Shown piece after piece: positions 2,946 to 25,072 of a stretch of 36,107 nucleotides of DNA. The stretch is taken from positions 1 to 36,107 of the forward strand of contig JAIRZX010000186.1 of NCBI GenBank assembly GCA_031267005.1, read 5' to 3'. The DNA is from Deltaproteobacteria bacterium (GTDB lineage: Bacteria; Desulfobacterota; Desulfarculia; Adiutricales; Adiutricaceae). The position numbers were made by a program, and so were the translations under genes. Numbering within the stretch: position 1 is the stretch's first letter; each line of letters begins with the position of its first letter. The notes under the pieces were generated by a model that worked only from the letters and a program-made list of their open reading frames with translations, was not told the DNA's origin and made no database searches.

Positions 2946-3839
2946 CTAGCTTACGCCCCCGGGTAAAGACTTGGCGAAAGCGATGCATTCCAACGTTTTA
3001 GCTGTCGCCAGACCGGAAAGATACCTGACGAATGGCTTCAAGTCGCCGCGATCGGCATTCGACAGCGCATCCAAGTATTCCTGTTTTCCGGCGACAGCCA
3101 CTACCGGCGGGAAAAAACCGGCCTTGATATACTCCATGGACATAAGTGCCCTTGCCACCCTCCCGTTTCCGTCCTGAAACGGGTGGATCAGTATGAACCG
3201 GTGATGGAGCCAGGCGGCCTCTATGTCAAAGGGCACCTTGGCCTCGATATGCGCGGCGTGCATTTCGAGGAGTTTGTCCATCTCAATGTCCACCTGCTCG
3301 GGCGGGCAATACTCAAAAATACCTTCCCCCGCGGAAGGGTTGTTCGGCCAACGCTTATAAACTCCTTTTAAGAGTTTAATCGGGACATGATGTCCCGTAG
3401 GCAACACTCCGATTGCGAATTCCTGGTTCTCGACAAACGCCGCGTGATAGGCCCTGATCGCTGTCGCATAGAGATGACGCCCATGCTTTATGTCCTGGTA
3501 CAAGGAATTGATGATCTGGTAATGGTTTTCAATAACCGCGGCAGTGTCTATGATTCCAATGCCGTTCGACTGATGGGATAATTCTACAGAATCAAGACCG
3601 TTATCAATCATGGCCTTGGTTAGGTTCCCGTCCAAGCTGTATAGCTTTTCCACTTGGCCGGTCTCGATCGCCCACTCGCGGATTATCTTCTCCCTAAAAG
3701 ACTCAAAAAGCTCGTGCTTAATCCTGTTTCGGACGAGTCCCCATTCCAGCTTGATATCATTGAAGTCCGGATCGGAAAAATCTAAATAGTTTTCCGGCAA
3801 ATCCTTTATCGGTTCCCATCTGTAAGCATATCCAGGCAT
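2946..3839 (-). CDS. Fic family protein (putative AMP-transferase)
   Basis: Fic core motif HPFQDGNGRVAR matches HPFx(D/E)GNGRxxR. N-terminal AIETGQVEKLYSLDGN segment is typical of Fic proteins. GGGAGG Shine-Dalgarno-like sequence upstream of the ATG. Confidence 0.9.
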   Translation of the reverse strand: MPGYAYRWEPIKDLPENYLDFSDPDFNDIKLEWGLVRNRIKHELFESFREKIIREWAIETGQVEKLYSLDGNLTKAMIDNGLDSVELSHQSNGIGIIDTAAVIENHYQIINSLYQDIKHGRHLYATAIRAYHAAFVENQEFAIGVLPTGHHVPIKLLKGVYKRWPNNPSAGEGIFEYCPPEQVDIEMDKLLEMHAAHIEAKVPFDIEAAWLHHRFILIHPFQDGNGRVARALMSMEYIKAGFFPPVVAVAGKQEYLDALSNADRGDLKPFVRYLSGLATAKTLECIAFAKSLPGGVS

Positions 3840-4655: not shown

Positions 4656-5210
4656 TCATTTTTGCCCTCTTGGTTTGCCGTCGGGTTTGGATGGAGTGAG
4701 ATTCAACTGTTCAAACGCATTGGATAAATTCCGTTCATGTTTGGCTTCAAGCTGAAAAGCGGGAAAAAACTTATAAACTAAAGTTAAAGCTTCACCTTTG
4801 CTCTTGATGCCTAGTTTATCAATCAAAAATTTAGTGTCATTAAAATCTTCCGTCCCTTTTCTTGAAGCTCTGATTTTTGTAGCTAAAAGAAAATCGGGCG
4901 TTACCACTTTAATGTTTAAGCCGGGAAGACTTAGAAAATCTAAAGTGGGAGTATCTGGATTGATCAAATAATTTCCAGAGCTGTTTAGCCAATCATCCGA
5001 AAATCCTTTCCCCTTACGCATATCCAAAGCTAATATTTGAACATCCAAATATGGCTCATAAACAGCATCGATATCGCGGGTCATTCTTCTTTCATTATAA
5101 GCCAATGCCATTGCTGCTCCGCCAAATATAACCATCTCGGCCTCAATGCCTTCATTGGCTAATCTCCGGCCCAACTCCTTAAGCCTAGCTAAAATGGCGT
5201 CTTTGTCCAT
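4656..5210 (-). CDS. DUF6036-like nucleotidyltransferase
   Basis: Nucleotidyltransferase-like EMVIFGGAAMALAYNERRMTRDIDAVYEP, followed by LLATKIRASRKGTEDFNDTKFLIDKLG. Strong AAGGAG (5217-5222) 6-7 nt before the ATG. Confidence 0.8.
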   Translation of the reverse strand: MDKDAILARLKELGRRLANEGIEAEMVIFGGAAMALAYNERRMTRDIDAVYEPYLDVQILALDMRKGKGFSDDWLNSSGNYLINPDTPTLDFLSLPGLNIKVVTPDFLLATKIRASRKGTEDFNDTKFLIDKLGIKSKGEALTLVYKFFPAFQLEAKHERNLSNAFEQLNLTPSKPDGKPRGQK

Positions 5211-5230
5211 GCTAAACTCCTTGAATTCAC

Positions 5231-6142
5231 TCAGATCCGGTACAGTACGTACCCGGAGACGAAAACGTTTCGTTCCACGAATTCCGGAGGCGTATCACGC
5301 GCAGGTCCCGTGGAACCAGGAAGAGATTCGGGCGCGTAAGGAGACTCGTCCGGGAAAAAGCAACGGGGCTCGAAAGTCCAGGCCGGGACTGGCAGGTCGA
5401 AACGCCTTGAAAGGACGGCCGCCGCGGCGCCGAGGAACGGAACATGCCAGCGTTCAGGAGTGTCGTGCGGGGAATCTTTAAGCATATGTTCGCGGACTTC
5501 TTTGCCTCGGTAAAGGTAAAACGCGTCCAAGAAATTTCCAAGATTGATGGAAAAGTCATCGTATTCGCAAATGTCCGCAGATACGCTCCGTATCGTTGGT
5601 AATTTTTTTAAATCCGGCGCCTGGCATAAGGAATCAACGCTAAAGGGGAACGGCAGAAGCGGCGGCACCACGTTCTTCGGCGTACCGGCAATTTTGATCA
5701 AATCCTGCCAATCCGTTATGCCTTTGGGCATGTGCCGGTGAATACACGCGGTTTCAGCGACGTTGAACCCGCATCGATCCCGAAGCGTCCAGAGATCAAA
5801 GTCCGGCGGCAAAGGCGTTTCCTCGACCCAAACATGCGCCGCCGTTCTCCCCATCCGATCGCGGATTTCCCAGTCGTTAAAACCAGAAGGTAACGTCCCG
5901 CGTTTGAAGGCGATATGCCCGACCGGAACACCATAATGATCTGTAAGTCCCCATTCGGAAAAATCCTGAGGCAACAAATCGTTCCGCGCTGCTATTTGGG
6001 CGAGCCCGTACCCTTTCTCAGTCAATAGACCCCAGCCGCGTTCGTCCGGGAGGGTGCCGTCCCGAAGGGCGTCTATCAAAGGCAGACTGTCCCGCTTATA
6101 GCTCTCGAAAATCATGGGGGCGACCTTCCCTGCCAGGGTCAT
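5231..6142 (-). CDS. Ankyrin-like repeat protein with a conserved C-terminal domain, partner of the downstream nucleotidyltransferase
   Basis: About four 26-27 aa units (LPxxFxxWxLxDxxGxxxAxxA...). C-terminus LPVPAWTFEPRCFFPDE...TPPEFVERNVFVSGYVLYRI. The ORF track starts at a TTG (6169); ATGs at 6142 and 6115 are more plausible starts. Only 20 bp to the next gene. Confidence 0.7.
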   Translation of the reverse strand: MTLAGKVAPMIFESYKRDSLPLIDALRDGTLPDERGWGLLTEKGYGLAQIAARNDLLPQDFSEWGLTDHYGVPVGHIAFKRGTLPSGFNDWEIRDRMGRTAAHVWVEETPLPPDFDLWTLRDRCGFNVAETACIHRHMPKGITDWQDLIKIAGTPKNVVPPLLPFPFSVDSLCQAPDLKKLPTIRSVSADICEYDDFSINLGNFLDAFYLYRGKEVREHMLKDSPHDTPERWHVPFLGAAAAVLSRRFDLPVPAWTFEPRCFFPDESPYAPESLPGSTGPARDTPPEFVERNVFVSGYVLYRI

Positions 6143-6198
6143 AATCCCGTCTCGGGCCGACTGAGGCAAGCCCGAAGCCTGGGCCAGGATCTGCTGAA

Positions 6199-6503: not shown

Positions 6504-6530
6504 GTTTTAGATATCTAAATATCTAAAAAC
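6504..6530. promoter_or_regulatory. AT-rich inverted repeat, possible operator or promoter region
   Basis: gttttagatat / atatctaaaaac arms, with one extra A in the second arm, upstream of the minus-strand 6462-4656 gene set. Confidence 0.35.
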
Positions 6531-6923
6531 TTTATTCCGCTGCGAAAACCCAGCTATCAACCGCGAAGTATCCGTAAGCAGGGTTGAAGACCACCTCCCC
6601 CCAGCTCACGGACCCAGCTCGCGGACCGCCTCACGCCCTCCCCCAAGATCGTCTGCCCCTGCTCGCAGCGGCCCCCCTCTCGCCTGCCCGAAGCTCGACT
6701 CCAGCCTGACACCGGACCGCCCCGCCTAGAGCCCCTGATCCGATATGCGCAATTGAACTCATTTGCTTTTGGTTTGCCGGCACTCTCTGGGCTGCCGATT
6801 TCGGAGGATGGGAGGGGAGGGTTTTCGCAGCCGAATCGACATGCGCAACGTCCACAAGTAGGCCTGGGGCAGTCCAGGCCCGGGACCAAGCTCGTGAACG
6901 GATACCCCGGTGGCGCTCAGGGA

Positions 6924-6952
6924 GCAGGGCGGAGATGCCCTGCCGCCTTTTT
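6924..6952 (+). terminator. Intrinsic-terminator-like hairpin
   Basis: Stem gcagggc-(ggagat)-gccctgc followed by cgcc and TTTTTT. Confidence 0.35.
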
Positions 6953-7199
6953 TCCGGATACTGAAGGGGGGGAACGACAGTCGTAAAGATGATTCAGCCA
7001 AGGGCTACCATAGAATTTCCACGCAGGCTTTAACTGCCGAGCGCGAGCGCCATAATCCCGACGAGTATCCCCCGGCCCCCCCCCGAACCGCGCGGCTTTG
7101 AGGTTATTTCAGAACCGCCGCCAGGGCGTGACTTGTCGGGCCGCCTTTAATCAGCTGTCCTTTCGCGCGTAAATACCCCACCGTGCCGCTTCCCCTGGT

Positions 7200-10100
7200 T
7201 CAGGACGCCCGGGGGGCCCTGGCGCCCGAGGCGCCGCCGGGAGCGGGCGGGTCCGCGGGCTCCGGGAACTCAGGGGGCTCCGGAGCCCCCATGGCGGCCA
7301 GCGCCTCCAAAGCCTCCCCGTAGTCGCCCGTCAGGATGCCGTCGGCAACCGCTTCCACGGCTTTCTTCAGCGCGGGCGCCGCGTACGCAGCGGCCTCCTG
7401 GAGGCGGCCCAGCTCCTCGTCCACGCGCGGGAAGTCGTGGGACTCCAAAGCATCCGCCAGTCCCGCCGCCAGGGATTTGAGGCTGGCCTTCGGGGCCGGG
7501 GGGGCGGCCTGCGCGGCTCGCCCGGAGGAGCCCGGGCCCGCGCCGGGGCCCGGAGCGGCGGACAGTTCCCTGATGCTTCCCGCGCGCCGTTCCAGACGCT
7601 CCATGAAGGAGGGGAGCTTCACGGCCACGAGCCCGAAATCTCCCTCGCGCCCGGCCTTCTCGAGGGCCGCTGCCCGGGCGGACAAAGGCCCTGCGCCTAT
7701 GTTGGCGCAGGCGCCCTTCAAGGCGTGCGCGGCTACGACGAAGCTCGCCGCCGAGGCCGCGTCCGGTGTCCCGGAGACGCCCCCCAGAGCCCCGAAGGAC
7801 CCTTCGGCGTCCTTGCGGAAGGCTTCCAGGAGCTTCAGGTACCTGGCCGATCCCCCGGCCCTGGTGACCCCGAGCGAAATGTCTACCCCCTCCAGGACGG
7901 GCATCGCGACGGACCCCGCGCCTCCCGAGCCCGCCCGGCCCGACCCGTCGCCTCCCGGGCCCGCCCGGCCCGGCCCTTCGCCTCCCGGGCCCGCCCGGCC
8001 CGACCCGTCGCCTCCCGGGCCCGCCCCGTCCTTCCCGGAGCCGCTTTCGTCGCCGCGCGGGCCGTAGGCCGTCCCCCCGGAAACGTTCCAAGCCGTCCCG
8101 GCCGCCGCCATCGCCGCCTGGGCGGCCGCGGCAGCCGTCGCCTGCGCCCCAGGGCCCCTGGCGTCCTGGAAGGCGGCCGCTGACGGCGCCGCCCCTCCGG
8201 GAAACGGCGCGCCGAAGCGCTGGGCCCCGCTTCCGTCCGGGTCCGCGTCGGCGTTCGCCGTCGCCTCCCTGCGCTTGGAGTGGGGGATCCAGCGGGCGAG
8301 GAGCCTGTCCAGGCGGGCCGGGTCTATGGGCTTGGTCAGGTAGTCGTCGAAGCCGCTCTCCAGGTACATCTCGCGCATGCCCGCAACCGCGTTCGCGGTA
8401 AGAGCCACTACGGGCACGTCGCGGCACCCGTCCAGGGCCCTTATAGCCTTCATCGCCTCGATGCCGTCCATCTCCGGCATCATGTGGTCCATCAGCACGA
8501 GATCGAAGTCCCTCTCCCGAGCCAGGCCCACCGCCTCCAGGCCGCCGGACGCGAAGGAGAGCCGCATGCCGTAGGGGAGGAGAAGGCCTTCGGCCACCAT
8601 CAGGTTCGAGGCGTAGTCGTCCACCACCAGCACCTCGGCGCCGGGGGCCGAGAAGGTGGCGCTGGGGGCCCCGCGGGACGGCCCGCGGCTGTCGGAGAGC
8701 TGGCCCATGGGCGTCCAGTCGGCGACCTTCTGGAAGATCCCGGCCCTGAACGTCGAGCCCTCGCCGTAGACGCTCTCGCACACGATGTCCCCGCCCATTG
8801 CGCGGCTCAGTTTCTTGGCGATTGCCAGCCCCAGGCCCGTGCCCTCGACGCCTATGTTCAAACGCTCGTCGAGCCTGGTGAACTCGCCGAACAGCCTCGC
8901 CAAATCCTCGGGGCGGATGCCCACCCCCGTGTCCTTGACCTCGAAGGAGAGCTTCGCCTCGTCCGCCCCGGCGCGCTTCGAACTGACGGTAAGCCTTATG
9001 CTCCCCTTCTGGGTGTACTTGACCGCGTTGGAGAGCAGGTTCAATAGTATCTGCCTCACGCGGGCGGGGTCCCCCACCATCATCCGGGGAATGTCCGGCG
9101 ACACGTCCGTCACGAGCCTCACGGGCTTCTCGCCCATGCGGACGCGGATCAGGGTGAGCGCGTCGTTTAGAAGCGACGAGGCCCGGTAGCGGGAGGGAAC
9201 GAGCTGCAGGGTGCCCGCCTCAATTTTCGAGAAGTCGAGGATGTCGTTTATGATGGTGAGGAGGTTCGCGCCAGCGCTCCGTATGCCGTCTATGTACTCC
9301 AGGGCCTTGGCCTTGCCGTGCTCCCTCCGCGCCAGCTCGGAGAAGCCTATGATGGCGTTCATGGGGGTGCGGATCTCGTGGCTGGTGCGGGCCAGGAACT
9401 CGCTTTTCGCCTTGGAGGCCTTCTCGGCGATGGAGATCTGGCGGGTGAGCTCCTCGGTCCTGGCGGAGACCGCCTCCTCCAGGAGCCTGCCCGTCCTGCG
9501 GGATTTTATGAACATGACGGCCAGGAGCAGTATCAGCATCGCCAACAGCGCCAGGCCCAGGGCCATGTAGGGCATCCGTGCCCGGGCCATGGCGCCCCGG
9601 TAGTCGAAGACCTTGGCCCGCCAGCGGGAGGCTATCTCCTCGGTGTCCACCAGCCTCTGCGCCTTGGAGAGGACGCTCCTCAAAACCCCCTCGCCAGCGG
9701 CGACCCCGAAATACGAGTCGCTGCTGCGGTCCTCCAGGGTCAGGTTCACCTTGAAATAGGGCCTTTCAAGGTAGTTGGTCATGGCCAGGAGCTCGTTTCT
9801 GGTCCCCATTACCAGATCGACTTCCCCGCGTTCGAGCCCGCCGTAGGGCCCGGTGTTGTCGTCGTAGGTCACCGTTCTCCTGTGGCCCGGAAACCACGCC
9901 CAGAAAAGCTCCGTCTTGGCCGTGCCCGCGCTCAGGCCGACGCGCAGGTCCGGCACGTCCTCTATGGCTATGTCCGGGAAGCCCGTCAACGACAGGAAGG
10001 CGTAACGGTCGACTACGTAGGGGGCGTCGGTCCACAGGAACCTGCCCTCCCTCTCGGGCGCCCTCAAAAGCTCGCTCAAGACGGATACCTTTCCTGTCTC

Positions 10101-11237
10101 CAGCGCCGCGAGGGACTCCTCCCACCCGACCGGACCGTCGTGGCCGGGCCTGATGTCCAGGCCGCTCAAGTCGGCGATCTCGCGCAGCACGTCCACCGCC
10201 GCCCCTTGGAACTCCCCCTCCCGGGCGTTCCAGAAGCTCATCGGGTAGTTGTCGTGCTCGAAGCCGGCCAGCACCGGCTCCCCCCGCCTTATACGCCCGC
10301 TCCTCCAGTTCAGCTCCTCCGGGGTGAGGGAAGCCAGGAACCTGTCGCGCACGTACTCCCTGCGCCCCCTGCGCCAGATCTCCTGGAAGGGTGCCCGCCC
10401 GCCCTGGTCGAGCCGCTTCTGGACTGCCGACACCAGGGGCGAGAGCTCGGGCTTGCGGGCCGCCAGGGCAACCTCCACCGTCACCATGGGCAGGATGTTC
10501 TCGGCCGTCACCTCCCCGTAGGGGTCGAAGGCGGCGCGGAAGGGGGCCTCGGCCACCACGGCGTCGGCCTTGCCGGTGGAAAGCGCCCTCCAGGCGTCCC
10601 CGGCGTCGTTCACCCCGATGGCGACGTAAGGCTTCTCGACCGCTTCCCTTGCCGCCTTGAAGTCGCCGGAGCCCCTCAGGTAGGCGAAGCGCACCGCGCG
10701 CCCGGCCGCTATCTCCGGAATGGGCCTGGAGCCCGGAAGCCTGATGTACTGGATGGGGCGGTCGGCTATGGGGGTGGTGGCGTAGGGCTGCTTCCCCCTG
10801 AGCCTCCCGGCGGAAGTAGCGGCCGTGAAGTCAACGGCGCCGGACTTTAACCCTTCCGCTATCCCCTCGCGGGAAAGTATGGCCGTCTCGAAGGTTATGC
10901 CGAAGAACTCGGAGAGCCAGTCGCACAAGAGCACCCCGGCCCCGCCTGTCTTGCCGTCCACGGTCGGGAACAGCTCCGAACTCCGCTCCCCCGCGAAGAA
11001 CAGGGCCCGGCGGCCGGCCTTGACGCTCTCTATGGCGTCCGCCTCCTCCCGGGTTATCCCGGGCACGTCCAGGTAGCCCGGGCGGACGGAAGGCCCGTGC
11101 TCCCCGGGCTTGGCCAGCGGCGTGCGCGGCTGCTGGGCGTATGGCTCCCCGGCGCCGAAGGAAAGCGCCAAAAATCCGAAGAGGATCGCGAAGGCGGCAA
11201 AGGCCCTGGACCCTGAGACATTCTTTCTGCGAGGCAT
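7200..11237 (-). CDS. Hybrid sensor histidine kinase 1 (SBP_bac_3 x2, TM, HisKA, HATPase_c, REC, Hpt)
   Basis: H-box FLARTSHEIRTPMNAIIGFSEL; N-box QILLNLLSNAVKYT; VKDTGVGI and GTGLGLAI; REC VLVVDDYASNL...LMDHMMPEMDG...TKPIDP; Hpt AAHALKGACANIGA. Second ATG (MPRRKNVSG...) precedes the signal peptide; the ORF track start is 11267. Confidence 0.95.
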   Translation of the reverse strand: MPRRKNVSGSRAFAAFAILFGFLALSFGAGEPYAQQPRTPLAKPGEHGPSVRPGYLDVPGITREEADAIESVKAGRRALFFAGERSSELFPTVDGKTGGAGVLLCDWLSEFFGITFETAILSREGIAEGLKSGAVDFTAATSAGRLRGKQPYATTPIADRPIQYIRLPGSRPIPEIAAGRAVRFAYLRGSGDFKAAREAVEKPYVAIGVNDAGDAWRALSTGKADAVVAEAPFRAAFDPYGEVTAENILPMVTVEVALAARKPELSPLVSAVQKRLDQGGRAPFQEIWRRGRREYVRDRFLASLTPEELNWRSGRIRRGEPVLAGFEHDNYPMSFWNAREGEFQGAAVDVLREIADLSGLDIRPGHDGPVGWEESLAALETGKVSVLSELLRAPEREGRFLWTDAPYVVDRYAFLSLTGFPDIAIEDVPDLRVGLSAGTAKTELFWAWFPGHRRTVTYDDNTGPYGGLERGEVDLVMGTRNELLAMTNYLERPYFKVNLTLEDRSSDSYFGVAAGEGVLRSVLSKAQRLVDTEEIASRWRAKVFDYRGAMARARMPYMALGLALLAMLILLLAVMFIKSRRTGRLLEEAVSARTEELTRQISIAEKASKAKSEFLARTSHEIRTPMNAIIGFSELARREHGKAKALEYIDGIRSAGANLLTIINDILDFSKIEAGTLQLVPSRYRASSLLNDALTLIRVRMGEKPVRLVTDVSPDIPRMMVGDPARVRQILLNLLSNAVKYTQKGSIRLTVSSKRAGADEAKLSFEVKDTGVGIRPEDLARLFGEFTRLDERLNIGVEGTGLGLAIAKKLSRAMGGDIVCESVYGEGSTFRAGIFQKVADWTPMGQLSDSRGPSRGAPSATFSAPGAEVLVVDDYASNLMVAEGLLLPYGMRLSFASGGLEAVGLARERDFDLVLMDHMMPEMDGIEAMKAIRALDGCRDVPVVALTANAVAGMREMYLESGFDDYLTKPIDPARLDRLLARWIPHSKRREATANADADPDGSGAQRFGAPFPGGAAPSAAAFQDARGPGAQATAAAAAQAAMAAAGTAWNVSGGTAYGPRGDESGSGKDGAGPGGDGSGRAGPGGEGPGRAGPGGDGSGRAGSGGAGSVAMPVLEGVDISLGVTRAGGSARYLKLLEAFRKDAEGSFGALGGVSGTPDAASAASFVVAAHALKGACANIGAGPLSARAAALEKAGREGDFGLVAVKLPSFMERLERRAGSIRELSAAPGPGAGPGSSGRAAQAAPPAPKASLKSLAAGLADALESHDFPRVDEELGRLQEAAAYAAPALKKAVEAVADGILTGDYGEALEALAAMGAPEPPEFPEPADPPAPGGASGARAPRAS
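7921..8040. repeat. 30-bp tandem repeat (about 3.7 copies) inside the REC-Hpt linker of kinase 1
   Basis: cctcccgggcccgcccggcccgacccgtcg units at 7921, 7951, 7981 and a partial unit at 8011. They encode decapeptides such as DGSGRAGPGG and EGPGRAGPGG. Confidence 0.95.
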
Positions 11238-11308
11238 AGGCGGCCCGGACAGCGCCCCGCCGGGCACGGCTGGCGTTCCGGCGGGGAGAATTCAAAGTGA
11301 GCTGTTAG

Positions 11309-12328: not shown

Positions 12329-15300
12329 TCACGAACTCTTCCGGAACCCTTTGGCCGGCCCGAACGCCTCCCGGGCCTTTCCGAAGTCGCCGGTCAGGAT
12401 GCCGGACGCCGCCCTGTCCGGGGACCCGTTCCGGCTTTCCGGCGCCGCGCCGCCCCGCCCGGCCTCCGCGCCTCCCCGGGCAAGTCCGTCCCCTCCTCCC
12501 CCACAAGGAAGCCCCGGGACTCCCCCTTCAAGGAAGCCTCGGGACTCCAGGGCGTCGGCCAGACCCTCGATGAGCGCCTTCAAGACCGCCTTCCTCCCCG
12601 GCGAAAGGCTCATGCGGAGTCCCTCCGGATCCGCCTCCAGGACCCCTTTCGCAAGCGCCTCGGCCCCCTTGGCAAGCGCGGAGGCCGAAGCCGCCGCGTC
12701 TTTGCTGGCGTCCAACTCCTCCCCGTCCTTCCGCTCCTCCCCCGGCGCCCGGGCCTCCCCCGCGATCGACGAGGCGCCAGTTGCCGCTTTTGCCGGTCCG
12801 TCGGCGCGGGCTCCCGCCGAGGCTCCCGCGTCCTGCCCGCCCGCCGGAGGGACGCTTTCGGAATGAGCGCCCCCGTTAAGCTCCGATATGCCTTTGACGA
12901 GCTTTCCCAGGCTTTCCCTGAACGGCGGGACGAGAACCCCGGCCGCTCCGAGATCGCCCGCCCGCAAGCGCGATTCCAGCTCGGCGGCCATCCCGGCGAG
13001 GGAGGGGGCCCCGATAGCCCCCAAGGCGCCTTTGAGCGCGTGGGCCGCCATCGCGAAGCTCCCCGCCGAGTCCCCGTCCGGGGCGCCCTCCAGGTTTCCC
13101 ATGGCCCCCTCGGCGTCCTTGACGAAGGCCTTAAGGATCAGCATGTACCTGGCCGAGCCCCCGGCGCGGGCGACCCCCGCCTGGATGTCCACCCCCTCCA
13201 GTGCCGAGGGGCGAACGGGCGAACCGACAGGCGGGGCCGAAGGTACAGGCGGGGCGGGCGTGGCCGAACCCGAGGGCGCCGAGGCGTCACGGGCCCCGTC
13301 CGCCGTTGGAGCGCCGTCGCCGGAAGCGCCGTCCCGTTCCCGGACGGCGCCGGGGGCGCCCGAGGCGGCCGCGTCGCGGCGCTTCGAGGCCGGGAGCCAT
13401 CGGTAAAGGAGCCTGTCCAGGCGCCCGGGGTCGATCGGCTTCGGAAGGAAGTCGTCGAAGCCGTTGTCCAGGTACATCTCGCGCATTCCGCTCACCGCGT
13501 TGGCCGTGAGCGCCACTATCACGGCGTCGTTCCCCCCTTCCATGGCCCTTATGTTCCTCGCGGCCTCGATTCCGTCCATTTCAGGCATCATGTGGTCCAT
13601 CAGCACGAGATCGAAAAAGCGGTCGCGTAGGAGCGCCACCGATTCCAAGCCCCCGGAGGCGAGCGTCACCCGCATGCCGTAGGGCGCGAGCAACCCCTCC
13701 GCTACCAAGAGGTTGGAGGAGATGTCGTCCACGACCAGCACTTCGGCCTCCGGGGCGGTGAAGCTGGCCGCGGAGGCGTCGCCGCCGTCGCGTTCGTCCG
13801 CCAGGCGGCCCATGGGGCTCCAGTCGCAGACCTTCTGGACCATGCTCGCCTGGAAGGAGGAGCCTTCGCCGTAGACGCTCTCCGCCTCCACGTCCCCGCC
13901 CATGGCCCTGCACAGGCGCCTCGCGATGGCGAGCCCCAGCCCCGTGCCCTCCAACCCGCTGTTGCGCTTCTCGTCGAGGCGGGTGAACTCCCCGAAGAGC
14001 CTGGGCAAATCCTCCGCGCGGATGCCGACGCCGGTGTCCTTCACCTCGAAGGTCAGGAGCGCCTCGTCCTCGCTGATGCGCCCGGCCCTCACGCTCAGGT
14101 CGATCCTCCCCTCCCTCGTGTACTTCACGGCGTTGGAAAGCAGGTTGAGGAGGATCTGCCTCACGCGCCCGGAGTCGCCTACCATGGAGGACGGTATGCC
14201 GGGGGAGACGTCCGCCACGAGCCTAACGGGCTTCTCGCCTATACGCACCCGGAAGAGCATTATCGCGTCGTTGAAGAGCGAGGCGGGCCTGTACCGGGCG
14301 GGTGCGATCCTCAAGGCCCCGGACTCTATCTTCGAGAAGTCCAGGATGTCGTTTATGATCGTGAGCAGGCTCGCCCCCGCGCTCCTTATGGCCCTGATGT
14401 ACTCGAGCGACTTGGGGCCCCCGCGCTCGCGCTGGGCGAGTTCGGAAAAGCCTATGATGGCGTTCATGGGGGTGCGGATCTCGTGGCTGGTGCGGGCCAG
14501 GAAGTCGCTCTTGGCCCGGGAGGCCTGTTCGGCTATGGCTATGTGCCGGGCGAGCTCGTCCCCGCGGCTTACGAGCTCCGAGGTGCGGGCGGCCACGGCT
14601 TCCTCCAAAAGCCTCCCCGCCTTGATGGACCTCGCGGACATGCAGGCCAGGAGCAGGATGAGGGCCGCCAGGAGCCCCAGGCCCCCCGCCATGTAGGGCA
14701 TCCGCGCCCTGGCGAGCGCCCCCCTGTAGTCGAAGACCCTGGACCTCCAACGGGAGGCGATCCCGTCGGCGTCCACCAGCCTTTGGGCCTTGCTCAGCAC
14801 CGCCCTCAGGCGGGGCTCATTGGGCGCCACCCCGAAGTAGGCGTCGCGCCTCCCGCCCACGACCGCGAAGTTCACCTTGAAATAGGGCTTTTCCAAGTAG
14901 TTGGTCATGGCCAGGAGCTCGTCGCGGGTCCCCAGCACCAGCTCCGCCTCCCCGCTTTCCAGCGCCGAAAAGGCCTCCTGGACGCCCGGGTACTCCATAG
15001 CGCTCCTGTGGTCCGGAAACCAGCTCCGGAACAGCTCGGCCGCCTCGGAGCCCGCCGCCAGCCCCACCTTCAGGTCCGGAACGTCCCCCATGCCCGCCTC
15101 CGGGAAGCCCGCGAGGGACAGGAAGGCGTAGCCGTCGGACATGTACGGCTCGTCCGCCGCGAGCGCCCCCTCCCAGTTCTTCCGCCCGCCCGGAAGGGAG
15201 CCCGCTATCTCGATTTCGCCGGCCGCCAATGCCTCCCTGGCCCCCGCGCCGGAAAGGCCCGCGCCCCGCGCCGCCCTGATTTCCAGCCCGGCCAAATCGC

Positions 15301-16351
15301 CGATCTCGTATAAGACATCGGGCGCCACCCCCTGGAACTCCCCCTCCCGCAGGTTGAAGAAGCTCGCGGGATAGTCGTCCGCTGCCAGCCCGGCCGCGAC
15401 GGGCTTCCCGGCCAGGCGCCTTTCGCCCACCCAGTCCCGCTCGTCCGGGGTAAGGGATCTCCTGAAGCGCGAGCGCGTGTGCTCCCTGCGGCCCTGGCGG
15501 TAAATCTCCCTGAAACGGGCCCGGCCCCCGGCCTCGACGCTTTTCTGGAGGACGGAGACGAAGCTCTCCAGTTCCGGCTTCGCCGTCGCCAGCGCCGCCT
15601 CGCTCGTCACGACCGGAAAGAGGTCCTCCCCCGAAACCTCCCCGTAGGGATCGAAGGCCCCGGCGGCGGGGGCTTCGGCGACGAAGGCGTCCGCCCGCCC
15701 GGAAGCGAGCATTTCCCAGGCCTCGCGGACGTCCTTCGCGCTGTAGGCCAAGTACGGCCTTTCCAGGGACCGCCTGGCCGCCCGGAAATTTACCGCCCCT
15801 TGGGCGTGGGCGTAGCGCACGGGCCTCACGGCCAGGATCTCGCGGAAGGGCCTCGCCCCCGGGAGCCTGAGGTACTGGACGGGCCGCTCCACCAGGGCGC
15901 CCGTCATGAAATAGATCCCGCGCCGCTCCGGGGTAGGGCTTATTTCGAGGGCGAAGTCCACCGCGCCGTCGCGGAGCCCCGAAAGCGCCGAACGCCAGGG
16001 CAGCATGGCGGGCTCGAACCTGATGCCGTAGAAGGCGGTCAGCCACTCGCACATGAGCGCCGCGGCCCCCGCCGGGCGCCCGTCCTCGGCTGGGAAGAGC
16101 TCGACGGAGCGCTCGTTTCCCAGCACGAGCGAACTCCTGGAAGCCTTGACGCCCTCTATGGCCGCGATCTCCTCGCCGGTCAGGCCCGGGACGTCGAGAT
16201 ATCCCGGCCTCCCGTCGGTGTGGCCCCGTCCGGCAGCGGGAAGCGGGGCCGTCGGCCGCTGAGCCCGGAGCTCAGCCGACGCAATCAGCGCCGAAGCCGC
16301 GAGCAGGGCTGACAGGGCGCAAAGGGCCGCGGCTGGCATGCGTTTTGGCAT
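12329..16351 (-). CDS. Hybrid sensor histidine kinase 2 (same architecture)
   Basis: Signal peptide MPKRMPAAALCALSALLAASALIASA; PGYLDVPG; FLARTSHEIRTPMNAIIGFSEL; REC MDHMMPEMDG; Hpt AAHALKGALGAIGA. Confidence 0.95.
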   Translation of the reverse strand: MPKRMPAAALCALSALLAASALIASAELRAQRPTAPLPAAGRGHTDGRPGYLDVPGLTGEEIAAIEGVKASRSSLVLGNERSVELFPAEDGRPAGAAALMCEWLTAFYGIRFEPAMLPWRSALSGLRDGAVDFALEISPTPERRGIYFMTGALVERPVQYLRLPGARPFREILAVRPVRYAHAQGAVNFRAARRSLERPYLAYSAKDVREAWEMLASGRADAFVAEAPAAGAFDPYGEVSGEDLFPVVTSEAALATAKPELESFVSVLQKSVEAGGRARFREIYRQGRREHTRSRFRRSLTPDERDWVGERRLAGKPVAAGLAADDYPASFFNLREGEFQGVAPDVLYEIGDLAGLEIRAARGAGLSGAGAREALAAGEIEIAGSLPGGRKNWEGALAADEPYMSDGYAFLSLAGFPEAGMGDVPDLKVGLAAGSEAAELFRSWFPDHRSAMEYPGVQEAFSALESGEAELVLGTRDELLAMTNYLEKPYFKVNFAVVGGRRDAYFGVAPNEPRLRAVLSKAQRLVDADGIASRWRSRVFDYRGALARARMPYMAGGLGLLAALILLLACMSARSIKAGRLLEEAVAARTSELVSRGDELARHIAIAEQASRAKSDFLARTSHEIRTPMNAIIGFSELAQRERGGPKSLEYIRAIRSAGASLLTIINDILDFSKIESGALRIAPARYRPASLFNDAIMLFRVRIGEKPVRLVADVSPGIPSSMVGDSGRVRQILLNLLSNAVKYTREGRIDLSVRAGRISEDEALLTFEVKDTGVGIRAEDLPRLFGEFTRLDEKRNSGLEGTGLGLAIARRLCRAMGGDVEAESVYGEGSSFQASMVQKVCDWSPMGRLADERDGGDASAASFTAPEAEVLVVDDISSNLLVAEGLLAPYGMRVTLASGGLESVALLRDRFFDLVLMDHMMPEMDGIEAARNIRAMEGGNDAVIVALTANAVSGMREMYLDNGFDDFLPKPIDPGRLDRLLYRWLPASKRRDAAASGAPGAVRERDGASGDGAPTADGARDASAPSGSATPAPPVPSAPPVGSPVRPSALEGVDIQAGVARAGGSARYMLILKAFVKDAEGAMGNLEGAPDGDSAGSFAMAAHALKGALGAIGAPSLAGMAAELESRLRAGDLGAAGVLVPPFRESLGKLVKGISELNGGAHSESVPPAGGQDAGASAGARADGPAKAATGASSIAGEARAPGEERKDGEELDASKDAAASASALAKGAEALAKGVLEADPEGLRMSLSPGRKAVLKALIEGLADALESRGFLEGGVPGLPCGGGGDGLARGGAEAGRGGAAPESRNGSPDRAASGILTGDFGKAREAFGPAKGFRKSS
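12505..12548. repeat. 25-bp-period direct duplication within the 3' end of kinase 2
   Basis: aaggaagccccgggactcc (12505-12523) and aaggaagcctcgggactcc (12530-12548). Confidence 0.85.
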
Positions 16352-17360: not shown

Positions 17361-20300
17361 CTACACGCCGGCTTCGGGGGAGCCGGTTTCAGGGGAACCT
17401 TCTCCCCCCCGCTCCCCCCCCAAGAACTCCGGTTCCAGGGAAGCCAGGTGGACGGCGGGGTCCAGATCCGTCAGGGCCCCTGCCAGGGCAGCCAGGCTCT
17501 CCTTGAACGCGCCGAGCCTTTTCTCTATGAAGGGCAGGTTCCCCTCGCGCCCGGCCTTTTCCAGGGCGGCGGCCCTCAACGACAACGGGACCGCCCCTAT
17601 GTTCCCGCAGGCGCTTTTGACGGAATGCACCTTTGCGGCGAAGGCCTCCCCCCCGCAAGCGCCCGGGGCGCCCGCCAAGGCGTCGCAAAACTCCAAGGCG
17701 TCCTTGCGGAAGGCCTCCAGCGCCTTCGCGTACCTGGCGGTGCCCCCGGCCCTGGCTGCCCCCAGCTTCACGTCCACGCCCTCCAAGGCGGCGAGCCCGG
17801 CCCATCCCCGGGCCGGCCGGACGAGGGGCCCGTCGAAGGAACTCCCCGCCGCGCCGCCGGGGTACGTTCCCGGGGCGGGGGCCGGGCGGCGCAACGACAG
17901 GGGGATCCAGCGGACGAGAAGCCTGTCCAGGGCCTCGGGGTCCAAAGGCTTGGCGAGGTAGTCGTCAAAGCCGAGCTCCAGGTAGCTCACGCGCATGGCG
18001 AACGCGGCGTTGGCGGTGAGCGCCGCCACCGGCACCTCCCTGCCGCCGGGCAGCTCCTTTATGGCCTTCAACGCCTCGACGCCGTCCATTTCTGGCATGA
18101 GGTGATCCATCAGGACGAGGTCGAAGCGCCGCTCCCGGGCGAGCCCCACCGCCTCCAGGCCCCCGGAGGCGAAGGACAGGCTCATGCCGTAGGGGAGCAG
18201 GAGCCCCTCGGCCACCATGAGGTTCGAGGCGTAGTCGTCAGCCACCAGCACGTGCGCGCCGGGGGCCGAAAAACTCGCCGGGCGCGGCGCCCCCCTGTCG
18301 CCCGGCTCCTCCTCCAAAGGCCCCATCGGAGTCCAGTCGCCAGCCTCCTGGACGACCCGCGCCCGGAACGTCGAGCCCTGGCCGTAGACGCTTTCGGCGC
18401 TCGCGTCCCCGCCCATCGCGCGGCAAAGCCTTCTCGTTATGGCCAAACCCAGCCCGGTCCCCTCCACGCCGGTGTTGCGCTTCTCGTCAAGGCGGATGAA
18501 CTCCCCGAAGAGCTTGTCCAGATCCTCGCCCCGGATGCCGACGCCGGTGTCCTTCACCTCTATGCGCAGCTCGGCGCGCCCCTCGCCGGCCCGGACGGCG
18601 TTCACGGCGAGCCTTATGTGCCCGCGGTGCGTGTATTTTACCGAATTGGAAAGCAAGTTTAGCAGTATCTGCCGGATGCGGCCGTAGTCCCCGGTCATGT
18701 GCGCCGGGATGTCCGGGGATACCGCCAGCTTCAGGCGGACCGGCTTCTCCCCCAGGCGCGCCCGGATAAGCGTCAGCGCGTCGTTTAACAGCCTCGCCGT
18801 CCCGTACCGCGCGGGAACCAGGTTGAGGCTCCCGGACTCTATCTTGGAAAAGTCCAGGATGTCGTTAATAATCGTCAGCAGGTTCCCCCCGGCGCTCCGT
18901 ATGCCGTCTATGTACTCCAGGCACTTCGGCTGGCCGTGCGTCCTGCGCGCCAGCTCGCTGAACCCTATTATCGCGTTCATGGGGGTCCTGATCTCGTGGC
19001 TCGTGCGGGCCAGAAACTCGCTTTTGGCCCTGGACGCCTGTTCCGACAAGGCTATCTGGCGCGAAAGCTCTTCCGTGCGGCGGCTCACCGCCTCCTCCAA
19101 AACCCGGCCCGAACGCCTCGAGCGGGCGAACATCACGGCCAGGAGCATGATGACCAGGGCCAGGAGCCCAAGCCCGGCCGCCATGAACGGCATGCGGGCC
19201 CGGGCCAGGGCGCCCCGGTAGTCGAAGACCCTGACCCGCCACCTGGCGACGATCTCGGGGACGTCCACCAGCTTCTGCGCCTTGGAGACGACGGATCCGA
19301 ACAGGGGTTCCCTGGGGCTGATCCCGAAGTACGAGTCGTAGCTCATCTCCTCCACGGTGAAGTTCACCTTGAAAAAAGGCCGCTCCATGTAGTTGGTCAT
19401 GGCCAGGAGCTCGTTTCTGGTCCCCATCACCAAATCGATCTCGCCGCGCTCCAACCCTCCGTACGGCTCGATGTTGTCCCGGTAGGTGACGGAGCGCCGG
19501 TGCCCGGGGAACCAGCTCCGGAAGAGCTCGGCCGCCGCCGTCCCGGAACTCAGCCCGACGCGGAGTTCCGGGACGTCCGCGATGCCCACGTCCGGGAACC
19601 CCGAAAGCGACAGGAAGGCGTAGCGGTCTGCCATGTACGGCGCGTCGGTCCACAGGTACCTGCCCTCGCGTTCCGGGGTCCGCACCAGCTCGCTCAAGAC
19701 GGCTATCTCGCCGCTCTCTAGCGCCGCGAGCGATTCTGCCCAGGGCACGGGCCCGTCGTGCCCGCCCCTGATGTCGAGGCCGGTCAGATCGCTAATTTCC
19801 TTCAGTATGTCCACCGCGACGCCCTGGAACTCGCCCTCGCGCTCGTTGTAAAAGCTCGCGGGGTAGTTGTCGTACTCCAGCCCCGCGAATACCGGCATGC
19901 CGCCGTCCAGCCTGTTTTTGACCCACTCCAGCTCGGAGCGGGTCAGAGACGCCAGTAACCTCGCCCGGGCGTAGTCGCGCCGCCCGAGCCGGGAAATCTC
20001 CTGGAAAGGGGCCCGCCCGCCCGCCTGGAGACCCTTTTCGAGTACGCCCACGAAGGCCGCGAGCTCGGGTTTCCGGGCCGCAACGGCCCCCTCGCTCGTG
20101 ACCATGGGCAATACGGTCTCCGCCGCCACCTCGCCGTAGGGATCGAAGCCGGCCCGCTCAGGGGCCCCGGCCACGAAGGCGTCCGCCTCCCCGGCCCTTA
20201 GCCTCTTCCACGCCTCGCGGAAGTCCTTTACGGAGACGGCCACGTAGGGCCCGGCCACCGACTCCCTGGCCGCCGGGAAAGCGGGGGAACCCCGCAAGTA

Positions 20301-20909
20301 GGCGTAGCGGAGCGGGCGGTTGTTTAAGATCTCCTGGAAAGGCATAGCGCCGGGGATCCTCATGTACTGAATCGGCCTCTCGAAGACGGCGGAGGTCATG
20401 AAATAGTCCGCCTTGCGCTCCGGCGCAGGGGCCATGTCGGTCGTAAAGTCCGCCGAGCCGTCGTCCAGGGCCTCAGGCGCCTCGCCCCGTTCCAACACCT
20501 CCGGCCTGAAGCGTATCCCGAAAAAGCCCGTAAGCCACTCGCAAAAAATCACCCCCGTCCCGCCGACGCGCCCGTCCACGCTTACGAACATCTCCGAGCT
20601 TCGCTCGTTGGCGAACACCAGCTCCTTCCTGGCGGCCTTCACCAGCTCGATGGCGTCTATCTCCCCTTGCGTGACGCCCGGCACGTCCAGATAGCCCGGC
20701 CGCCCTCCCGGCAAGCCCGCCGCCCCCGCGTCCGCGGCGACTCCCGCGTCCTCCGCCCCGCCAGCCTCCGCTTCGGCCTCCGTTTCGGCGAAGCCTCCAA
20801 GGCGGCCGTCCGGGGCCTGGGCCCGCGACGCGCCATGGGACGCCGCCGCCGCGAAGGCGAAGGCGGCGATGAAGGCATAGAAGGCCATATGCGGCTTGGG
20901 GGATGGCAT
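17361..20909 (-). CDS. Hybrid sensor histidine kinase 3 (same architecture, shorter C-terminus)
   Basis: PGYLDVPG; FLARTSHEIRTPMNAIIGFSEL; REC VADDYASNL...LMDHLMPEMDG; Hpt KVHSVKSACGNIGA. Confidence 0.95.
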   Translation of the reverse strand: MPSPKPHMAFYAFIAAFAFAAAASHGASRAQAPDGRLGGFAETEAEAEAGGAEDAGVAADAGAAGLPGGRPGYLDVPGVTQGEIDAIELVKAARKELVFANERSSEMFVSVDGRVGGTGVIFCEWLTGFFGIRFRPEVLERGEAPEALDDGSADFTTDMAPAPERKADYFMTSAVFERPIQYMRIPGAMPFQEILNNRPLRYAYLRGSPAFPAARESVAGPYVAVSVKDFREAWKRLRAGEADAFVAGAPERAGFDPYGEVAAETVLPMVTSEGAVAARKPELAAFVGVLEKGLQAGGRAPFQEISRLGRRDYARARLLASLTRSELEWVKNRLDGGMPVFAGLEYDNYPASFYNEREGEFQGVAVDILKEISDLTGLDIRGGHDGPVPWAESLAALESGEIAVLSELVRTPEREGRYLWTDAPYMADRYAFLSLSGFPDVGIADVPELRVGLSSGTAAAELFRSWFPGHRRSVTYRDNIEPYGGLERGEIDLVMGTRNELLAMTNYMERPFFKVNFTVEEMSYDSYFGISPREPLFGSVVSKAQKLVDVPEIVARWRVRVFDYRGALARARMPFMAAGLGLLALVIMLLAVMFARSRRSGRVLEEAVSRRTEELSRQIALSEQASRAKSEFLARTSHEIRTPMNAIIGFSELARRTHGQPKCLEYIDGIRSAGGNLLTIINDILDFSKIESGSLNLVPARYGTARLLNDALTLIRARLGEKPVRLKLAVSPDIPAHMTGDYGRIRQILLNLLSNSVKYTHRGHIRLAVNAVRAGEGRAELRIEVKDTGVGIRGEDLDKLFGEFIRLDEKRNTGVEGTGLGLAITRRLCRAMGGDASAESVYGQGSTFRARVVQEAGDWTPMGPLEEEPGDRGAPRPASFSAPGAHVLVADDYASNLMVAEGLLLPYGMSLSFASGGLEAVGLARERRFDLVLMDHLMPEMDGVEALKAIKELPGGREVPVAALTANAAFAMRVSYLELGFDDYLAKPLDPEALDRLLVRWIPLSLRRPAPAPGTYPGGAAGSSFDGPLVRPARGWAGLAALEGVDVKLGAARAGGTARYAKALEAFRKDALEFCDALAGAPGACGGEAFAAKVHSVKSACGNIGAVPLSLRAAALEKAGREGNLPFIEKRLGAFKESLAALAGALTDLDPAVHLASLEPEFLGGERGGEGSPETGSPEAGV

Positions 20910-21352: not shown

Positions 21353-24300
21353 CTAGCGAGTCGCCCGGCTCTCGTCCCTCATAGCCGTAAGGCCGTCCAG
21401 CGCCTTCACGAAGTCGCCGACCAGGATGTCGTCCGATACGGCGTCCACTGCGTCGCGCAATCCCGGAGAACCGGCCGAGGCCGCAGCGTCCTGGAGGCGA
21501 GCCAGCACCTCGTCCACGCGGGGGAAGTCGCTGGCCTCGATGGCGTCCGCGAGGCCGGCCGCCAGGGCCCCAAAATCCGGCGCGGGCCGGCCGGGGGAGG
21601 GCGCCGAAGGGGCCTCGGGCGGGCTCCCGCCGCCGCCGGGGAGGGGCGAAAGGTCCAAGATGCTCTGGGCAAGTCGCTCCAGCCGTTCCCTGAAGGGGGG
21701 GAGCTTCCTGACGATGAAACCTTGGTCGCCATCGCGGCAGGCCGCCTCCAGGGCGGCGGCCCGGGCCGACAAGGGGCCGGCGCCTATGTTCGCCAAAGCG
21801 CTTTTCAAGGCATGCACGACGACCGCGAAGCGGTCCGTTGAGTCGGGGCCGGGCGCCGCCTTCAAGATATAGGCGCTCCCGGCCACGTCCCTCCGGAAGG
21901 TCTCCAGGAGCTTCAGGTACCTCGCCGCTCCCCCCGCCCTGGCCGCGCCGAGGCCGGAGTCCACGTCCTCCAGGACCGGGACCGGGGTGGAGGCCTCCCC
22001 CGCCGGGCCCTGGGCCCCAGGGGCTGCGCCCCCCGGCAAGGCGCCCGCGGCTGGGGCGCCGCGGCGCTTGGAGGGCGGGATCCACCGAGACAGGACGGCG
22101 TCCAGCCGGGCCGGGTCGATGGGCTTGGAAAGGAAGTCGTCGAAGCCGTTTTCAAGGTACATCTCGCGCATGCCCGCCACGGCGTTTGCGGTAAGCGCCA
22201 CGACTGGGATATCGCGGCCGCCCTCTAAGCCCCTTACCGCCTTCATGGCCTCGATCCCGTCCATCTCGGGCATCATGTGGTCCATCAGGATCAGATCGAA
22301 GGGATGCTCCCGCACGAGGCCCACGGCCTCGAGGCCGCCCGAGGCGAAGGAGAGCCTCATGCTGTAGGGGGCCAGCAGGCCTTCAGCCACCATGAGGTTA
22401 GAAGCGTAGTCGTCCACGATGAGGATCTCGGCGCCCGGTGCCGTGAAGGTCGCGCGCCTGGCCTCTTCCACCTCCCCGTGCTCCTCCGCGAGAGGCCCCA
22501 GAGGAGTCCAGTCGGTGACCTTCTGGAAGATCCGGGCGCGGAACATCGATCCCTCGCCGTAGGAACTCTCGGCCTCGATGTCCCCCCCCATGGCCCGGCA
22601 GAGGCTCCTGGCGATGGCGAGCCCCAGCCCGGTGCCTTCCACCGCGCTGTTGCGCTTCTCGTCGAGGCGGGTGAATTCCCTGAACAGCCTTTCCAGGTCC
22701 TCCTTCCTGATGCCCACCCCGGTGTCCTGCACCTCGAAGGTGAGCCTCGCCTCTTCTTCCCCGGTCTTGTCCGCGCGCACGCTCAGGCGTATATGCCCCC
22801 TCTCGGTGTACTTCACCGCGTTGGAGAGGAGGTTTAGGAGGATCTGCCGTATGCGCCCGGAATCGCCGGTCATGGAGGAGGGGATGTCCGGGGAGACGTC
22901 GGCCACGAACTTGACGGGCTTCTCGCTCATCCTCACGCGGATGAGCGTTATCGCGTCGTTTAGAAGCGACGACGCCCTGTAGCGCGATGGCGCCAGCTGG
23001 AGGCTTCCGGACTCTATCTTCGAGAAGTCCAGGATGTCGTTAATTATGGTGAGCAGGCTCGCCCCGGCGCTCCTTATGCCCTGGATATACTCCAGCGCCT
23101 TGGGCTTGCCGTACTCGCGCTGGGCGAGTTCCGAAAACCCAATGATGGCGTTCATGGGGGTGCGGATCTCGTGGCTGGTGCGGGCCAAAAAGTCGCTTTT
23201 GGCCTTGGACGCCCGCTCGGATATGCCTATCTGGCGCGTCAGCTCCTCTGTGCGCGAGCTTACCGCCTCCTCGAGGAACCTTCCGGCGCGGCGGGATTTC
23301 ATGAACATGACGGTCAGGAGCACTATCACGAAGGCAAGGAGTCCCAGCCCGGCCGCCATGAAGGGCATCCTGGCCCTCGCGAGGGCCCCGCGGTAGTCGA
23401 AGACCCTGGTGCGCCACCTTGACGCGATCTCCTCCGCGCCTACGAGCGCCTGGGCCTTGGAAACGATCGCCCTTAACTCCGTCTCCGAGGAGGTTATGCC
23501 GAAGAACGACTCGTAGTGGCGGTCGATTGCGATGTTGACCTTGAAGTACGGCCGTTCGAGGTAGTTGGTCATGGCCAGGAGCTCGTTGTGGGTGCCCATC
23601 ACCAGATCCACCTCGCCGCGCTCCAGCCCGGCGAAGGGCAAGGTGATGTCCTTGTAGTTTACCGTGTTGGGGTGCTCGGGGTACCATTTCCAAAACAGTT
23701 CGGCGTAGGCGGACTTCTCCGTGATCCCCACCCTCAGGTTCGGAACGTCCATGAGGGTCACGTCCGGGAAGCCGGTCAGGGACAGGAAGGCGTAGCGGTC
23801 GGTCATGTAGGGCTGGTCCGCCCACAGGAACCTGCCCTCCCTGTCCGGGGTCCGCACGAGTTCCGTCACGAGCGAGACGCTTCCGGATTCCAGGCGCGAG
23901 ACGATCTCGTCCCAGGCCGCGGGGCCGCTGAAGGCGTGCACGAACTCCAGCCCGGTCATGTCCCGGATCTCCTTTAGGATATCGACGGCTACTCCCTGGA
24001 ACTCCTTTTCCCGCTCGTTGTAGAAGCAGACGGGGTAGTTGTCGTTCTCCATGGCGACCGGGATCGGGCCCTCCCCGGCCCGCCTCTTAAGCCATTCCTG
24101 CTCCGGGCGTGTCAGGGACGCCAAAAACCGCGTACGGACGTAATCGCGGTTCCCCTCGCGGTACAGCGCCTGGAAAGAGGCCCTGCCGCTGTGGTCAAGA
24201 TGCTTCTGGACGGCCGAGATGAAAGGCGCGAGCTCCGGGTTCCTGGCGGTCAGCGCGACCTCGCTTGTCACCATGGGGAGGATGTTCTCGGTTTCCACCT

Positions 24301-25072
24301 CCCCGAAAGGATCAAAGGTAGCCTTCGCCTGGGCCTCGGACACGAAGGCGTCCACCCTGCCCGAGGACAGGGCCCTCCACGCCTCGCCGACGTCGCGCAC
24401 GGTCTGGGCCACGTAGGGCTTCTCGACGGAGCTCCTGGCCATTTCGAAGTTGACCGTCCCGAGAAGGTAGGCGTAGCGCACCGGCCGCGTCGCGAGTATC
24501 TCGGAAAAAGGCCTCGCTCCGGGCATCCTCATGTACTGCAGCGTCCGCTCGGCTACGGGCGTGGTCATGAAGTAAACCTTGCGCCGTTCCGGGGTGGGGG
24601 TCATCTCGGACGTGAAATCGACGCTCCCGTCCGAAAGCCCGCCCACGATGCGGTTCCAGGGGAGGATCTCGGCCTTCACCCTTACCCCGAAGAAGGCGGT
24701 CAGCCACTCGCAGATGTAGACCCCGGCCCCGCCCGGGCGGCCTTCCACCGTCATGAAGAGCTCGGAGCTGTTCGAGTTCGCGAAGACCAGCTTGCCCCGC
24801 GAGGCTTTAACGCCCTCGATGGCGTCTATCTCCTCCCGCGTCACGCCGGGCACGTCCATGTACCCCGGCCGGGCCGCCGCGCTCCCGCCCGGAAGGGCGC
24901 CCCCCTGGTCCCCCTCCCCCGCCCGGAGCCCGGCGGGCCCGCCGGGGGCGGCGGCGTCCCTCTGGGCCCAGCCGAAAGAGGTCGGAAACAGCGCCGCCCC
25001 GCACGCCGCCGCCAGGAGTGCGACGGCCGCAAGCAGGCGCGGGCTCAGGACAGCTTTGGGGATTGGGTGCAT
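21353..25072 (-). CDS. Hybrid sensor histidine kinase 4 (same architecture)
   Basis: PGYMDVPGVT; FLARTSHEIRTPMNAIIGFSEL; REC LIVDDYASNL...LMDHMMPEMDG; Hpt VVHALKSALANIGA. Confidence 0.95.
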   Translation of the reverse strand: MHPIPKAVLSPRLLAAVALLAAACGAALFPTSFGWAQRDAAAPGGPAGLRAGEGDQGGALPGGSAAARPGYMDVPGVTREEIDAIEGVKASRGKLVFANSNSSELFMTVEGRPGGAGVYICEWLTAFFGVRVKAEILPWNRIVGGLSDGSVDFTSEMTPTPERRKVYFMTTPVAERTLQYMRMPGARPFSEILATRPVRYAYLLGTVNFEMARSSVEKPYVAQTVRDVGEAWRALSSGRVDAFVSEAQAKATFDPFGEVETENILPMVTSEVALTARNPELAPFISAVQKHLDHSGRASFQALYREGNRDYVRTRFLASLTRPEQEWLKRRAGEGPIPVAMENDNYPVCFYNEREKEFQGVAVDILKEIRDMTGLEFVHAFSGPAAWDEIVSRLESGSVSLVTELVRTPDREGRFLWADQPYMTDRYAFLSLTGFPDVTLMDVPNLRVGITEKSAYAELFWKWYPEHPNTVNYKDITLPFAGLERGEVDLVMGTHNELLAMTNYLERPYFKVNIAIDRHYESFFGITSSETELRAIVSKAQALVGAEEIASRWRTRVFDYRGALARARMPFMAAGLGLLAFVIVLLTVMFMKSRRAGRFLEEAVSSRTEELTRQIGISERASKAKSDFLARTSHEIRTPMNAIIGFSELAQREYGKPKALEYIQGIRSAGASLLTIINDILDFSKIESGSLQLAPSRYRASSLLNDAITLIRVRMSEKPVKFVADVSPDIPSSMTGDSGRIRQILLNLLSNAVKYTERGHIRLSVRADKTGEEEARLTFEVQDTGVGIRKEDLERLFREFTRLDEKRNSAVEGTGLGLAIARSLCRAMGGDIEAESSYGEGSMFRARIFQKVTDWTPLGPLAEEHGEVEEARRATFTAPGAEILIVDDYASNLMVAEGLLAPYSMRLSFASGGLEAVGLVREHPFDLILMDHMMPEMDGIEAMKAVRGLEGGRDIPVVALTANAVAGMREMYLENGFDDFLSKPIDPARLDAVLSRWIPPSKRRGAPAAGALPGGAAPGAQGPAGEASTPVPVLEDVDSGLGAARAGGAARYLKLLETFRRDVAGSAYILKAAPGPDSTDRFAVVVHALKSALANIGAGPLSARAAALEAACRDGDQGFIVRKLPPFRERLERLAQSILDLSPLPGGGGSPPEAPSAPSPGRPAPDFGALAAGLADAIEASDFPRVDEVLARLQDAAASAGSPGLRDAVDAVSDDILVGDFVKALDGLTAMRDESRATR

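Follow-up and report, generated by a model that had tools for sequence, protein, structure and literature searches.

What is encoded by two closely spaced genes, one of which bears ankyrin-like repeats, in a 36,107-nucleotide stretch of Deltaproteobacteria DNA (the whole of which is referred to as the window)? The two open reading frames lie on the minus strand with 20 bp between them. The upstream frame encodes a partner protein of 294 residues (5231–6115), a putative antitoxin made up of a repeat domain and a conserved C-terminal domain, and the downstream frame encodes a 184-residue nucleotidyltransferase of the DUF6036/AbiEii type (4656–5210), a putative toxin assigned from Pfam and AlphaFold2. 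An earlier sequence-only reading of the locus had reported the 20 bp gap and a strong Shine-Dalgarno sequence on the second gene, and both are present, with AAGGAG (5217–5222, minus strand) standing in the gap 6–7 nt ahead of the nucleotidyltransferase ATG. Both frames that it had described are real, and the C-terminus that it quoted for the partner agrees with the translation to the letter; its partner start at 6142, however, fits less well. The partner frame (5231–6169, minus strand) is open back to a TTG at 6169, and the ATG at 6115 is the more likely start, since the relatives begin at the equivalent ATG and since a better probable ribosome binding site, AGGGAAGG (6124–6131, minus strand), precedes it.

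The nucleotidyltransferase scores above the cut-offs of the Pfam families AbiEii (PF08843; 29.9 bits against 22.5, with the best stretch at the N-terminus, residues 17–52), DUF6036 (PF19502; 25.0 bits against a gathering threshold of 23.6) and DUF2204 (23.6 bits against 20.3), which bears out its initial description as a DUF6036-like enzyme. It also matches the AbiEii models in the PADLOC defence library, and a DUF6036 match at E ≤ 0.01 was obtained for 15 of its 17 aligned relatives. The AlphaFold2 model (pLDDT 87) displays a mixed alpha-beta, nucleotidyltransferase-like layout, for which the best PDB match in Foldseek is the nucleotidyltransferase-like protein 5uvd. Existing annotation assigns no function to DUF6036 enzymes, and our literature search found no paper that names them.

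A profile of the nucleotidyltransferase relatives detected the Mycobacterium tuberculosis toxin MenT1 (PDB 8an4) with an E value of 0.0043. In the profile alignment, the MenT1 segments GG..FTRDVDIV and LIAMKLL..DRSDL are aligned with GG..MTRDIDAV and LLATKIR..DFNDT of the window enzyme, respectively. Residues R37-F38-T39-R40-D41-x-D43 of MenT1 thereby correspond to the metal-binding motif G30-G31...R42-M-T44-R45-D46-I-D48 (5067–5123, minus strand) from R42 onwards, and K137...D149-x-x-D152 corresponds to K112...D122-x-x-D125 (4836–4877, minus strand); both features were delimited using the MenT1 chain of 8an4 and an alignment of the nucleotidyltransferase relatives, A2. Within A2, D48, K112, D122 and D125 are invariant (17/17), D46 is found in 16 of the 17 sequences, and position 44 is Thr or Ser in 15. 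The toxicity of MenT1 requires D41, K137 and D152, and T39 is phosphorylated upon MenA1 binding (PMC10435456, PMC11375011). The counterparts of the mutation-tested residues T39, D41, K137 and D152 are T44, D46, K112 and D125, all of which are present; the window enzyme thus keeps, as aligned, an intact MenT-type active site.

The MenT1 alignment also bears on a reading in which the nucleotidyltransferase is dispensable and acts on a small molecule, as an ANT-like, antibiotic-modifying enzyme for example, and the partner is its accessory subunit. A Foldseek match to ANT(2'')-Ia (E 0.024) points in this direction, but the profile matches MenT1 over both catalytic regions, and, to our knowledge, a small cross-phylum partner encoded alongside is not typical for ANT enzymes; we find such a function barely credible.

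The partner was matched by none of the family models in Pfam, NCBIfam, PADLOC and PHROGs, and the AbiEi models of Pfam and PADLOC matched neither it nor its relatives. Searching the solved structures in the PDB with profiles of the partner alignments A1 and A6 returned noise alone, with no solved antitoxin among the matches. The AlphaFold2 model (pLDDT 82) is mostly helical. The conserved part is a C-terminal domain of ~125 residues (5231–5605, minus strand) that ends in PEFxERNxFVxxxxLYRx and was delimited using A1, A6, HMM searches and a tree. Scanning of genome contigs with the single window protein yielded no loci, and scanning with an alignment yielded seven. In genomes of the same family, the domain is encoded directly upstream of the nucleotidyltransferase in one of two forms: fused to repeats (the window, G001 at three loci, G003, G005, G009, G024 on contig C208, and G029), or free as a protein of ~125–150 residues (G014, G016, G023, G024 on contigs C234 and C229, and G030). 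An HMM built from host-family sequences alone finds a Brevibacillus partner at 4.9e-25 and a mycobacterial fusion protein at 0.005; a wider HMM, from which the mycobacterial fusion was excluded, scores that fusion at 4e-11. The partner domain crosses phyla, yet no family model covers it.

That a small nucleotidyltransferase adjoins a small, mostly helical partner is also reminiscent of the type VII-like HEPN-MNT arrangement, in which the antitoxin is a nucleotidyltransferase that AMPylates its toxin partner (PMC11586414). The partner lacks the R-x(4-6)-H motif of HEPN proteins, and A1 and A6 contain no conserved histidine, which renders a HEPN-MNT pair unlikely. Additionally, the enzyme matches none of the MNT families and fits AbiEii/DUF6036 instead, and it is the enzyme rather than the partner that is more often broken, as detailed below. 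We consider this assignment of roles very unlikely.

The sequence-only reading had put the two genes forward as a candidate module, to be checked for conserved pairing, and other genomes do show such pairing. Among 26 nucleotidyltransferase matches in relatives (16 genomes), which were collected by enzyme search alone and independently of the partner, 21 carry the partner domain within the adjacent kilobase. The five that do not comprise two fragments, two very diverged enzymes (27–28% identity) and an orphan interrupted by a stop; in G004, the nucleotidyltransferase has no detectable partner and its frame carries a stop. The gene order is reversed in more distant families of the phylum, with the enzyme followed by the partner. 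Beyond the phylum, pairs occur in Actinomycetota and Bacillota, where the domain protein precedes a DUF6036 enzyme on plasmids of Mycobacterium, Curtobacterium, Tessaracoccus and Brevibacillus; in NZ_CP012886 and NZ_CP144923, the partner is directly upstream, at a distance of 2–16 bp. On these actinobacterial and Brevibacillus plasmids, the protein beside DUF6036 is labelled 'hypothetical protein'; the plasmid pairs share the enzyme family and the directly upstream partner domain with the window, and differ in that their partners are devoid of ankyrin-like repeats. Several mycobacterial plasmids (those of M. riyadhense, M. sp. JS623, M. intracellulare and Mycolicibacterium TY66) encode partner and enzyme as one protein of 360–380 residues. 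No relatives were found among phage records. Partner and enzyme co-diverge: their pairwise distances correlate with a Mantel r of 0.61, a value reached by none of 5000 permutations.

The likeness of the partner C-terminus to HTH proteins encoded beside DUF6036 enzymes, as suggested in the sequence-only reading, stands in part. The C-terminal domain is indeed homologous to the neighbours of DUF6036 enzymes; the HTH, in contrast, is visible by eye only, in the first ~45 residues of the fused mycobacterial proteins, for which Pfam called no HTH. That reading had named two observations that would speak against it, a lack of conserved co-occurrence in other genomes and a C-terminus dissimilar to the DUF6036-linked HTH proteins. 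As the pairing is conserved and homology links the C-terminal domain to DUF6036 neighbours, neither was encountered, save that the HTH of these neighbours was not confirmed.

How does the pair compare with characterized systems? With MenAT1 of M. tuberculosis (MenT1 PDB 8an4/8an5), it shares the catalytic residues T-x-D-x-D, K and D-x-x-D, and in both a small nucleotidyltransferase is encoded with a dedicated partner. The enzyme similarity is low, however, with MenT1 detected only by the profile search; by sequence, the window partner is unlike MenA1 or any other solved antitoxin, and it bears ankyrin-like repeats. With AbiE, the phage-defence toxin-antitoxin system comprising AbiEi and AbiEii, the likeness is that the window enzyme passes the Pfam AbiEii cut-off, although it has 184 residues as compared to the 238 positions of the AbiEii model, whose N-terminal part it matches best, and the partner shows no match to the winged-helix antitoxin AbiEi. 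The window enzyme probably works like the AbiE and MenAT enzymes. On the antitoxin side, assignment of the pair to either AbiE or MenAT fails as far as the sequence comparisons reach.

A further pattern concerns which half of the module decays. At four of the eight other loci where the partner bears repeats, the enzyme is stopped, truncated or without D46: early stops or truncation affect G001 (a genome from the same genus as the host) at loci a and c, and G005, and D46 is lost in G003. The partner beside each of these four broken enzymes is complete. If harm comes from the enzyme, it is the enzyme that should be broken more often, as is the case here. In G001, one broken copy of the pair is directly followed (L072, 2432–3445) by a different, larger nucleotidyltransferase-like open reading frame with a SRAFGKVDDYSDYDVVF motif recognized by eye.

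The N-terminal part of the partner is built differently. Following an N-terminal cap (residues 1–29), four 27-residue ankyrin-like repeats occupy residues 30–56, 57–83, 84–110 and 111–137 (5705–6028, minus strand), as delimited from periodicity, the units themselves and arrays elsewhere. The identity at offset 27 over the first 150 residues is 24.4%, a value that none of 2000 shuffles reached at any offset from 20 to 40; the roughly four ankyrin-like repeats of the initial reading are therefore present. The host genome contains about eleven open reading frames of 390–1173 residues made almost wholly of the repeat; 195 units were counted in its arrays, with a spacing of 27 in 159 gaps and the consensus W-E-L-A-D-x-x-G-x-T-V-A-H-x-A-A-x-x-G-x-L-P-x-G-F-D-x. 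The Pfam ankyrin models did not match the window partner, and its best Foldseek matches are ankyrins and DARPins, which are weak (E 0.015 or worse). The description as ankyrin-like is nevertheless correct, as the long arrays of the host genome match Ank_2 (4.8e-23) and also Ank_4. Within the repeat, G-x-T-V-A-H-x-A-A-x-x-G-x-L-P matches the first half of an ankyrin unit; the unit differs in having 27 residues in place of 33, and one helix in the AlphaFold2 model in place of two.

Proteins made almost entirely of this repeat, giant and cytosolic-looking, are encoded on host contigs C120, C167, C175, C463, C604, C91, C412, C5 and C41. The repeat is expanded across the genus, with 57–99 matches in five of six genomes and open frames of up to 2038 residues in G004. 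A related 27-residue ankyrin-like repeat protein (GWTVAHEQARNGWTTEDKEILKLADEK) was also seen in another phylum, on the megaplasmid pDF308 of Deferribacter desulfuricans (L115, 2375–3889).

Were these repeats exchanged for a DNA-binding domain, as had been suggested? A tree of the 125-residue domain places all nine partners that bear repeats in a single group (support 98/98), and none of 500 label shuffles gave a value as low. Their nearest outgroups are bare proteins of ~125 residues with no extra domain and no HTH, so the repeats are an addition and not an exchange for an HTH. The tree thus implies a single gain of repeats by the partner, within the host family. On contig C234 of G024, the arrangement is the converse: the partner is bare, but the C-terminus of the enzyme carries about four 27-residue repeats in a frame that extends to the contig end. 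The only copies of the repeat in G024 at E ≤ 1e-5 are this enzyme and the fused partner on C208. The attachment to the enzyme is separate from the partner fusion, and with repeats on the partner N-terminus in one case and on the enzyme C-terminus in the other, the module has received the repeat in two positions. Most genomes with fused partners hold repeats elsewhere too. We rejected a dependence of fusion on genome-wide repeat arrays, as G024 has repeats only in the module and G016 has repeats and yet a bare partner; owing to these two genomes, no simple rule for the fusion emerges.

The repeats bring into consideration a sensor-effector pair with a defence or regulatory role, in which the partner, instead of being an antitoxin, would turn the enzyme on or direct it to its target, with the repeats recognising a phage or cell protein. 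Placement of the repeats on the partner in one clade and on the enzyme at another locus is as expected for a shared recognition arm, the mycobacterial plasmids provide fused enzyme-partner proteins, and the PADLOC matches of the enzyme connect it to defence. However, most lineages manage with the bare partner domain, which indicates that repeat recognition is not the core function, and intact partners beside broken enzymes would be odd for an activator. Apart from a Fic gene, moreover, Pfam and PADLOC revealed no phage-defence gene among the few neighbours scanned. We judge a sensor-effector pair to be unlikely.

The Fic-domain protein in question (2946–3839, minus strand; PF02661 1.3e-15, PADLOC PDC-S04 1e-19) is encoded downstream of the pair, in the same orientation. 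On the Clavibacter plasmid pCM2 (L119), a partner homologue is likewise followed by a Fic gene. No Fic relatives were found in the fetched loci of relatives, which for most genomes had short flanks only; with none in these loci and the pCM2 case too little to build on, the Fic gene was dismissed as a third component. On the other side of the pair, the intergenic region at about 6530–6960 belongs to a family of dispersed repeats that gave about 50 matches elsewhere in the host genome, at 69–90% identity. Five consecutive paralogous hybrid sensor kinases of 1182–1396 residues then fill 7200–30448 on the minus strand (7200–11267, 12329–16351, 17361–20909, 21353–25072 and 26258–30448), an unusual tandem expansion; each has, by eye, two substrate-binding-like regions, a kinase, a receiver and a C-terminal HPt-like part. 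Near the start of the window, the stretch 506–1030 on the plus strand looks by eye like an N-terminal piece of an IS-type transposase.

Taken together, a functional model for the pair can be proposed. The MenT-type active site, the small conserved partner, the natural fusions, the presence on plasmids and the decay of the enzyme beside a complete partner make the locus fit a toxin-antitoxin module with what would be a new antitoxin family. We put a probability of roughly 0.6 on this reading, a two-gene toxin-antitoxin-like operon in which a MenT/AbiEii-like toxin is accompanied by a dedicated antitoxin of a new family with an added repeat arm. Points that count against it are that the partner is unlike AbiEi and all solved MenA antitoxins in sequence, the partnerless enzyme of G004, the reversed gene order in more distant families and the negative result among phage records. 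The 184-residue nucleotidyltransferase would add nucleotides to RNA, most likely tRNA 3' ends, and, when free, would stop translation. The ~125-residue C-terminal domain of the partner would act as the antitoxin by binding the enzyme and blocking its activity, possibly by pushing T44 towards the bound nucleotide, as MenA1 does to T39 of MenT1. The N-terminal solenoid of four repeats would most likely bind another protein, and this binding may set the place or the time at which the toxin is held or released. Toxicity, neutralisation and the RNA target are properties that we infer for the pair, as we do a role in defence.

In a broader form, offered tentatively and with considerable doubt, the partner domain would define a family of antitoxins to DUF6036 toxins that spans phyla and is so far unnamed, and in the host's bacterial family the repeat would have been attached to the complex at least twice, at the antitoxin N-terminus and at the toxin C-terminus, as a recognition arm. 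If true, this arm would make toxin release depend on one particular protein cue, for which the organism's own giant repeat proteins are conceivable candidates. For DUF6036 enzymes, the case supplies a concrete partner that can be tested, in a pair whose MenT-like active site is intact, and the repeat domain on either half of the complex represents a natural experiment in grafting sensing domains onto toxin-antitoxin pairs.
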